Source: Methylobacter sp.
Lineage (GTDB): Bacteria > Pseudomonadota > Gammaproteobacteria > Methylococcales > Methylomonadaceae
Assembly: GCA_028712225.1 (NCBI GenBank)
Contig: JAQTQN010000007.1
Location: 1-39,935 of the forward strand
Direction of reading: 5' to 3'
DNA length: 39,935 nt
The position numbers and the translations under genes are program-made. Under the pieces are notes generated by a model, which was not told where the DNA came from, made no database searches, and saw only the letters and a program-made list of their open reading frames with translations. Positions 33,326 to 35,959 of this stretch are shown here, piece by piece (the stretch's first letter is position 1; the number at the start of each line of letters is the position of its first letter).

Positions 33326-34319
33326 CTAAAAGGCCACGATCCCACAGCTTTTCAAGCTGCACAGGCGTCGCAAGTTATAGGTTGCCGCCTTCCAATTGAG
33401 CGGCAACGTGGCCCGCTCCAGACCAATGCAGCGTAAGCCTTTGCCGCCCAGTTACTCCAGGCCAGCAAACACATGCTCAACGCGTACCCGCGTTTTAGCA
33501 ATGCGGGTGTTGCGGTGCTTTTGGCAGTCAGATAAGGGCTTACCTGGGGCGGCTTTGCGTTGAATATGCACGCGCCAACCGGCCGCTTTTAATCGGGTTT
33601 CGCGTTCACCGTCTACGCAACCTTTGTCGCCATAGAGATCGCGACTGGTGTTGCTGGCATCCAGTACATCTTCCAGATGACGGGTATCGTGTTCGCTGGC
33701 GGTACTGATTTTGATCTTGCGAATGAGCTTATAACGTCTATCAGCGCAGGCGGATAGCTTATAGCCAAAGTACGATTTACCGTGTTTCTTGGTCCAGGTG
33801 GCATCGACGTCCTTCTGCCGTCGCTTGGCAGGCGACCAATCTATCGGTGTCGCGGCTTGTTTAATCAAGTCCTTTTCTGCTTTATGAAGGTGCTGTTTGG
33901 GTACAGGTACAATGCTGGCGTCTATCATTTGCCCACCACGCGCGATGTAACCGTGCTTGTCCAGCTCACGGTTAACGGCGTCAACCAACAGTAGGCGCTT
34001 TAGGCGATAGGGTTTCACTGGCACCGGCCGCCGCGAGTCGTTCTCGAAAGGTCCAGAACGTGGTGCGATCTGGAATCTGACTGCTGTGGCGCAACCCAAC
34101 AAAGCGTTGAAAACTCAGGCGATCCAACAATTGATACTCCATTTGTTCATCGCTCAGGTTGTAAAGCTGTTGAATGATTAGGGCTTTTACCATTAGTCCG
34201 GTGGGAAACGGTCGCCGACCGCCGCGATCAAGGCTGGGACGCGGTGCTGCCAGGTCAATGGCAGCAGCCAGCGCTGCATAATCAACATGCTGTTCCAAAA
34301 GTTGTAAGGTATCGCCTAG
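33326..34319 (-). pseudogene. IS5-family transposase, broken and 5'-truncated
   Basis: Read on the minus strand, fragments join to one IS5-type DDE transposase: LGDTLQLLEQHVDYAALAAA, then SDEQMEYQLLDRLSFQRFVG and PDRTTFWTFRERLAAAGA. After a frame change near 33990-34011 come GYIARGGQMIDASIVPVPKQ (first Asp), SRDLYGDKGC (second Asp) and RVRVEHVFAGLE (Glu). A TAA at 33452-33454 (probably from CAA) then cuts off LGGKGLRCIGLERATLPLNW and the following YNLRRL to a TAG at 33326-33328. The frame change coincides with about 19-22 extra bases holding TAGGCG twice. The 5' end is replaced by the adjacent IS1182 element, and no matching start is seen on its far side. The copy cannot make transposase. Confidence 0.88.
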
Positions 34320-34332
34320 GAGCCTGTCGGAC
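34316..34332 (+). repeat. Left terminal inverted repeat of the IS1182 element with CTAG
   Basis: CTAGGAGCCTGTCGGAC is identical to the reverse complement of 35943-35959; the CTAG part is palindromic and probably the duplicated target. Confidence 0.9.
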
Positions 34333-35208
34333 TTCCCGGCGAGTCCACCTCGCCATTTGGTAAAATAACCGCCAATATTGAGACAAAAACCGAGAAGAGC
34401 CATGGCCCGATTCATCCAATACGACCGACACCAACAATATCTACTGCCGCCGTCAGTGGATGAATGGTTACCCGATGATCACCTGGCCCGATATATCGTC
34501 GAAGTCATCGATTAACTGGATTTATCGAAGCTGACCAGTCGGTATTCGCGCAGTGGTTCCGAAGCCTATCACCCGGCCTTGCTGCTGGCCCTGCTGGTTT
34601 ACGGCTACGCCACCGGCACCTTCTCCAGCTGTAAACTCGAAAAGGCGACGTACGATTCCGTGGCTTTCCGTTTCATCGCCGCTAACTTGCATCCCGATCA
34701 CGACACCTTGGCCAACTTCCGCAAGACGTTCCTGGTGGAACTGGAAGACCTGTTTATCCAGGTACTGACGATTGCGAAGGCCATGAAACTGGTCAAGCTT
34801 GGAACGATTTCGCTGGACGGCACCAAGCTCAAGGCGAACGCCTCGAAGCACAAGGCTCTGTCCCACGGTCATATCGAAAAACTGGAAGCCCAGCTGCGCG
34901 AGGAAGTCCAAGCCTTATTGGTCAAAGCAGCCCAAACCGATCAACAGGAAGCGGGCGACGAGCACGACTTACCCGCCGAAATCGCCCGCCGCGAACAGCG
35001 CCTCAAAGCGTTGGCTGAAGCCAAAGCCAAGATTGCCGAACGGGTTAAAGAACGCGACCAGCAGGCCCAGAAAGACTATGCCGACAAAGTCGCACGCCGC
35101 GAAGCCCAGCGCGCCGCCGGACAAAAGCCGCGCGGCAAAGAGCCCAAAGCGCCTGAAACCGGGCCAAAGGCCAAGGATCAAATCAACCTGACCGACGAAG
35201 AATCCCGC

Positions 35209-35225
35209 ACTTGTGCCCTGTGGGT
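35209..35225 (+). repeat. 17-base insertion, copy 1, in the transposase gene
   Basis: ACTTGTGCCCTGTGGGT interrupts the codons for ESR and IMPSHEG. It shares the 16-base core TT(G/A)TGCCCTGTGGGTA with copy 2, counting the A that follows it. Confidence 0.8.
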
Positions 35226-35333
35226 ATCATGCCCAGCCACGAAGGCTTCGTGCGGGGGTACAACGGCCAGGCGACCGTCGACGTTGACAGCATGCTCATC
35301 GTCGCGGCCACGCTCACGCAGGACACCAACGAT

Positions 35334-35350
35334 TTATGCCCTGTGGGTAC
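35334..35350 (+). repeat. 17-base insertion, copy 2, in the transposase gene
   Basis: TTATGCCCTGTGGGTAC interrupts the codons for TND and KQQVEP, 108 bases beyond copy 1, in the same orientation and with a core that differs by one base. Confidence 0.8.
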
Positions 35351-35942
35351 AAGCAGCAAGTCGAACCGATGCTGGACGAAGTAGCCAAACTGGAAAACGA
35401 TTTGGGAAAGCCCGATACCTTGCTGGTCGATAACGGTTACTTCAGCCGAGGCAATGTTAAAGTCTGCGAAGACCGAGGCATCACGCCGCTGATCGCCCTG
35501 GGCCGAGATTCGCATCATCTGCCTTTGGAAGAACGACTCGCGGCCGATGTGCCCGCGCCGCACACCGACGATCCGGTGGTCAAGATGGCTCACGCCTTGA
35601 AAACCAAAGAGGAACGCACCTGTTACGGTCAGCGCAAATGTAGCGTCGAGCCGGTGTTCGGTATCATCAAACAGATCATGGGCTTTCGACAGTTCTCGTT
35701 GCGCGGTCTGCAAGCGACTTCCGGCGAATGGAAACTGGTCGCCCTGGCCTACAATCTGAAACGGATGCACGTACTGGCGGCCGGATAAGCCGGAATGATC
35801 GTAAAAGTCTCGCCGGTTGGCGTTGCACGGCGATCAGGTCAGACCGCTTTTGGTTGGGTGCAATCCGGAAATTTGTTTTGCAAGTCGCGCCACCGGCTTC
35901 GTTGCCTCGCGGCCGCCAGAAAATCAGGCGGACAAGGTCATT

Positions 35943-35959
35943 GTCCGACAGGCTCCTAG
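35943..35959 (-). repeat. Right terminal inverted repeat of the IS1182 element with CTAG
   Basis: GTCCGACAGGCTCCTAG, the 17-base exact inverted copy of the left end at 34316-34332. Confidence 0.9.

Follow-up and report, generated by a model that had tools for sequence, protein, structure and literature searches.

The two short words that interrupt an IS1182-like transposase gene of Methylobacter sp. are very probably insertions of a dispersed repeat, and they belong to a lineage-wide family of 17-base insertions that follows a sharp target rule and whose mover is unknown. This scope goes beyond the original prediction, which had proposed that near-identical inserts of 17 bases lie behind both frame changes of this one gene. 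By the window we mean the whole stretch of DNA that was analysed, the first 39,935 nucleotides of contig JAQTQN010000007.1 (assembly GCA_028712225.1).

Alignment with ten homologs confirms the number, length and position of the proposed inserts. At the first site (form A), an exact 17-base gap is present in all ten homologs aligned, with CGCA flanking the insert on the left and TCATG on the right; the word originally given as ACTTGTGCCCTGTGGGT is this same insertion, shifted by an ambiguous A. At the second site (form B), the exact 17-base gap is present in nine of the ten, the tenth (L208) being itself damaged there, and the flanks are ACCAACGA on the left and CAAG on the right. One insert is of a CTTG-type and the other of a TTTA-type. 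The window contains exactly two copies of their common word TGCCCTGTGGGTA, on the same strand (35214-35226 and 35337-35349), versus 0.01 copies expected from shuffling, and two copies were reached in no shuffle of the window. The copies are spaced 123 bases start to start, with 106 bases between the inserts. Intact relatives carrying the same words would have refuted the prediction; none of the ten relatives has them.

The host gene matches PF05598, PF01609 and PF13751, and its N-terminal part is 82-86% identical to that of its nearest relatives, whose open frames measure 429-452 aa. Among the ten homologs, most have open frames of 430-465 aa. When the host gene is aligned over a longer stretch with four homologs (L195, L196, L197 and L221), nothing but the two inserts changes the reading frame, if one disregards a 1-base alignment gap near 34489 in L195. 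The same alignment reveals an in-frame TAA, absent from the lesions listed originally, which as judged from the sequence is a third reason to regard the gene as a pseudogene. The positions of these features are collected in Table 1. A neighbouring IS5-like transposase (33452-34415, minus strand) is read in two overlapping frames with DDE_Tnp_1 and DUF772 parts, and the insertion sequence beginning at 34316 interrupts its 5′ end, so that the transposons are nested.

Table 1. The two inserts, their host gene and the surrounding insertion sequence (positions in the window).
Feature	Position	Strand	Remarks
Form A insert, A[CTTGTGCCCTGTGGGTA]T	35210..35226	+	between A35209 and T35227; equivalently 35209-35225
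Form B insert, A[TTTATGCCCTGTGGGTA]C	35333..35349	+	between A35332 and C35350
IS1182-like transposase pseudogene, host of both inserts	34402..35788	+	DUF772 N-terminal, DDE_Tnp_1 C-terminal part
Insertion sequence around host gene	34316..35959	+	perfect 17-nt inverted repeats CTAGGAGCCTGTCGGAC / GTCCGACAGGCTCCTAG at 34316-34332 and 35943-35959
In-frame TAA in host gene	34513..34515	+	glutamine codon CAA or CAG in relatives

At each site the gene departs from the family sequence by exactly 17 bases, which is also what would be seen if the ribosome skipped the 17 bases by translational bypass or recoding, a possibility that had been rated less likely from the outset. Because the gene also carries the TAA, such skipping is unlikely; moreover, the words lie on either strand of genes and equally in non-coding palindromes. 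Bypass was rejected on these grounds, and we leave it only the faintest chance.

The words are not confined to this gene. The search of the genome that had been suggested with the prediction finds the core nine times in the genome of origin and its reversed control not at all; when up to three mismatches are allowed, the numbers are 28 places versus 2 for the control. The family consensus is YTTRTGCCC-NNY-GGGTA, 17 bases long and rarely 18. The pattern TTRTGCCCNNNGGGTAY is found in 46, 44, 45, 56, 35 and 189 copies in genomes G003, G001, G020, G252, G189 and G090, respectively, with controls of zero in all six, nearly always zero across all genomes scanned, and many other genomes having none or one copy of the pattern. 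Only exact patterns were counted, and the copy numbers are therefore lower bounds. The words are spread through many Methylomonadaceae-type genomes. Named genomes with the words include Methylobacter, Methylomonas, Methylovulum, Methylotuvimicrobium and relatives; a related form was encountered in Cycloclasticus, Desulfobulbales and some Bacillaceae in the same scan of named genomes. Viral contigs hold few words, without a clear pattern. In a phylum-wide sample of 398 genomes, only single matches were obtained outside the genome of origin; as this is approximately the chance level, the family is lineage-restricted. No Rfam family matches the 17-mer, and a text search of the open literature with variants of the 13-base core retrieved no paper describing the word. 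In halophilic Bacillaceae (L084, L090, L097, L134 and L147), the word stands in a conserved context, ..GCAGATGTTG..AC[TTRTGCCCTRTGGGTA].AAGC.., which is possibly part of a larger repeat.

That the host gene is a pseudogene could be taken to mean that the inserts are products of random decay or slippage, or else an assembly error. Set against this, dozens of unrelated sites carry the same word and obey a target rule, and reversed controls are close to zero. Besides metagenome bins, isolate genomes (Methylobacter luteus and Methylomonas lenta) also have the words, and an assembly error, which would have overturned the prediction, is thereby not borne out. Decay is excluded because the pattern is too regular, and assembly error because it is too widespread, and what probability we still grant them is negligible; chance was likewise rejected on the recurrence and the controls.

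Evidence for insertion comes from empty sites. The flanks of non-REP sites were joined by script and searched in 237 related genomes, and 17 of 28 sites, both window sites counted in, yielded an ungapped homolog that lacks the 17 bases. These homologs are usually 76-96% identical over ~70-120 bases. Their hosts are mostly transposase genes (IS1182, IS3, IS1, IS5, IS21, IS110 and IS701-like), the families other than that of the window gene having been named by inspection of reading frames, without comparison to a library. Apart from a single unassignable A, the target is not duplicated. The M. luteus repeat GTAGGTGCGAATTCA^TTCGCAC is present in empty, singly filled and doubly filled versions: the single filling is CTTGTGCCCNN(N)TGGGTA, while the double filling has TTTATGCCCTTTGGGTA ahead of the first insert. 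A comparison of open frames across joined flanks (four longer versus seven shorter) was uninformative, since frames often run open through the word, and homology decided instead.

Two further loci deserve mention. An IS21-like element of Methylomonas lenta (L088:1000-4300) carries one 17-mer in each of its two genes, a double hit of the same pattern as in the window gene. Homologous IS3-type genes are filled at the same point in different genera (L257:1559; L281, minus strand, 1499; G019:C28:28387-28497), explained either by a recurrent target (GCA^TCA) or by inheritance from long ago.

The insertion points obey a simple rule. When 199 contexts were clustered into 81 independent ones, the -1 base was A in 56 (p=1.6e-16), the -2 base was C in 53 (p=5e-15), and the +1 base was a pyrimidine in 70 (p=5e-12). 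The last figure is somewhat inflated, because some loci were found with a pattern requiring a pyrimidine after the word. The target is (Y)CA^Y. Furthermore, the element types, which differ at positions 1 and 4, are strongly associated with the +1 base (Fisher p=1.5e-14): T follows the CTTG-type in 27 of 33 contexts, and C follows the TTTA-type in 32 of 38. A third type, CTTA, was seen in 10 contexts, mostly within one repeat. From our reading of the alignments, the +1 base of the CTTG-type is unchanged in the closest empty homologs in 8/8 cases, as against agreement in about half of the empty homologs of the TTTA-type; at several form B sites, the C of the filled copy corresponds to A or T in the homolog. 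Given that form B homologs differ there, part of the +1 signal could stem from the element. The rule does not amount to Watson-Crick pairing of the +1 base with position 4, as G4 goes with T and A4 with C. The predicted single-strandedness of target sites is no higher than that of controls.

A CTTG-type insert produces an A^C junction and a TTTA-type insert an A^T junction. An insert of either type thus provides the other with a target, and the doubly filled, side-by-side copies are explained in this way; this mutual creation of targets may also be behind head-to-tail arrays such as L182. In that array (L182:6012-6130), seven 17-mers (TTATGCCCTGCGGGTAT) stand head to tail, the last two with a different loop. 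Of the origins first suggested for the words, a tiny mobile or templated insert is favoured by their dispersal, by exact empty sites at unrelated places and by the target rule.

The unit itself has a regular anatomy. Context-anchored copies, a set that left out candidates with >3 core differences, vary chiefly in the loop NN(N)Y, whose length is 3 nt and occasionally 4 nt; the prefix and the GCCC/GGGT arms are nearly constant. The hairpin is weak in single-stranded DNA (-1.3 kcal/mol). The TGT loop of form B is also that of eight other exact copies in the genome of origin, and within a genome the loops tend to be common to both types (TGT here, TTT in M. luteus), which suggests one element pool rather than two old lineages.

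Constant halves around a loop that varies in both sequence and length (3 or 4 nt) resemble a joint, as if a larger transposon with ends YTTRTGCCC...GGGTA had excised and left a footprint of 17-18 bases with the joint as its loop. We find this doubtful. Throughout 137 kb of M. luteus, wherever a left half stands at the standard repeat (GAATTCACTTGTGCCC), the right half comes directly after it, with no larger filler; the loop is restricted to 3-4 nt; and hundreds of scars would be required without a surviving parent.

Many intergenic copies lie inside REP-like palindromes, perhaps having been copied as a unit. At L319 (G001), a RAYT gene is flanked by three palindromes, each with the word and a 4-base loop, CAGA or CAGG. 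The word lies beside a RAYT gene at L319 and at L342 by way of the host palindromes, and it is absent at most Y1/RAYT loci examined. Separately, a unit of ~54 bases made up of a palindromic repeat (AAAGCTGAGTTGAGCAGC...) and the 17-mer occurs in tandem in L233, L229 (G090), L143, L101 and L078, and this tandem unit spans taxa as distant as Methylobacter oryzae, Cycloclasticus and Desulfobulbales.

The word might accordingly be viewed as a loop-extending module that RAYTs copy along with REP-like palindromes, the genic copies being rare accidents of this process. Most copies in several genomes do sit in palindrome loops, some of these palindromes start with GTAG like classical REPs, and the RAYT gene in L319 has three such repeats around it. 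However, the copies in transposase genes are exact 17-base insertions without palindrome arms; the word is found in several unrelated palindromes, and the same palindrome also exists without the word. We therefore regard such a module as improbable, and continue with insertion of a dispersed repeat as the preferred reading.

A unit of 17 bases is too short for coding, and its mover is hence inferred to act in trans. Among enzyme classes, Y1/HUH single-strand transposases, either of IS200/IS605 or of REP (TnpAREP/RAYT) type, would be the likeliest candidates. In this scheme the 4-base prefix would serve as the guide, the small hairpin would be bound by the enzyme, and cleavage would take place after CA at the left end and after TA at the right. 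In the CTTG-type, T2 and G4 could match the target CA; in the TTTA-type, the element's own right end TA could be what is matched. Known enzymes offer precedents. IS608 uses a tetranucleotide guide ahead of a hairpin, inserts 3′ of the sequence that this guide matches, and prefers C at +1 (PMC5934647). In Marinomonas, TnpAREP cleaves at CA or CT depending on the tetranucleotide that precedes the hairpin, and an altered motif results in an altered cut; the E. coli enzyme is described there as cleaving inside the dinucleotide (PMC8266576), so that the match in register is inexact.

RAYT genes are present in most genomes of the family, and their number shows a modest rank correlation with the copy number of the word (0.36, n=128, uncorrected for relatedness; RAYT counts above ~12 are "at least" values). 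Genomes with at least nine RAYTs can hold zero words, and G193 has six words with no RAYT found. RAYT copy number as the sole determinant was rejected, as the correlation is only modest and the exceptions are clear. Canonical IS200 terminal hairpins were also rejected as the source of the words, their ends being unrelated in the M. luteus and G252 copies.

Considered jointly, and with most of the weight on insertion, the proposal of an ultra-short mobile repeat inserted in trans by an HUH-type mover is one that we moderately favour. The HUH-type identity of the mover, on its own, is a tentative assignment that falls short of being favoured, and no enzyme has been tied to the words. A more ambitious version holds that the 17-mer is the smallest known natural substrate of DNA transposition, a guide-plus-hairpin moved by an HUH enzyme, whose prefix determines the base at the insertion point or is determined by it, and whose types target each other; we would call this rather unlikely, if worth stating.

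Some other trans-acting enzyme could be responsible instead, be it a DDE transposase, a site-specific recombinase or a process based on reverse transcriptase, with positions 1 and 4 dependent on the target. The types share loops within a genome, which would fit positions 1 and 4 being fixed in the course of insertion, and the +1 rule is of a wobble type, not Watson-Crick. On the other hand, a target duplication of ≤1 base is unusual for DDE enzymes, and a candidate gene was not found. We hold this to be an unlikely explanation that nonetheless has to be kept in mind, and return to the trans-acting HUH-type mover and the repeat that it would insert.

The spread of the shortest dispersed repeats in bacteria is not yet understood. 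The 17-mer family, a candidate for being among the smallest mobile DNAs, provides a clean test case: the unit is constant, the empty sites are exact, the target rule is sharp, and two types differ in target preference. Culturable hosts exist in Methylobacter luteus and Methylomonas lenta. If the enzyme is found, a lower size limit for mobile DNA would be set and a class of frameshifts in transposase genes explained; for annotators, such transposase pseudogenes have one common cause.

Several known systems can be compared with the 17-mer. Like MITEs, it is non-coding, dispersed and probably moved in trans; unlike them, it is devoid of known IS terminal inverted repeats and of a target duplication of typical length, and it measures 17 bp versus tens to hundreds. 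It shares with IS200/IS605 elements (IS608, ISDra2) insertion 3′ of a short fixed sequence, the absence of duplication, a +1 preference and a guide-like tetranucleotide 5′ of a hairpin. It is, however, far shorter and without a transposase gene, with one hairpin in place of two subterminal hairpins around tnpA, and its guide-target pairing is not Watson-Crick in a simple register. The resemblance to REP/REPIN sequences consists of a short hairpin after a constant tetranucleotide, the CA/CT cut of the Marinomonas RAYT, and the commonness of RAYTs in the family. In contrast to these, the 17-mer has the prefix CTTG, TTTA or CTTA and not GTAG/GTGG, lies inside genes and REP loops rather than as an extragenic inverted doublet, and is 17 bp long where the cited REPs have 23 or more.

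The closest kind, in what is our best reading of these comparisons, is the very small mobile repeated elements (SDR) of cyanobacteria. According to PMC2884548 and PMC4390886, which cite Elhai et al. (2008), SDRs are ~20 bp, dispersed, non-coding and suspected to be mobile, and SDR5 inserts between bases 3 and 4 of HIP1. The 17-mer is similarly small (17-18 bp), multi-copy (up to 189 exact pattern matches per genome) and precise, with empty sites. It differs in its hosts, gammaproteobacterial methanotrophs, in its length of 17 bp, in its target, CA^Y versus the HIP1 of SDR5, in having two types tied to different target bases, and in that its proven empty sites are mostly in transposase genes. 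The two probably share kind, not ancestry. Taken together, because two features that define REPs, the GTAG prefix and the extragenic location, are lacking, we group the 17-mer with the very small dispersed repeats and not with REPs, although its mode of working is SDR-like and in part also REP-like.
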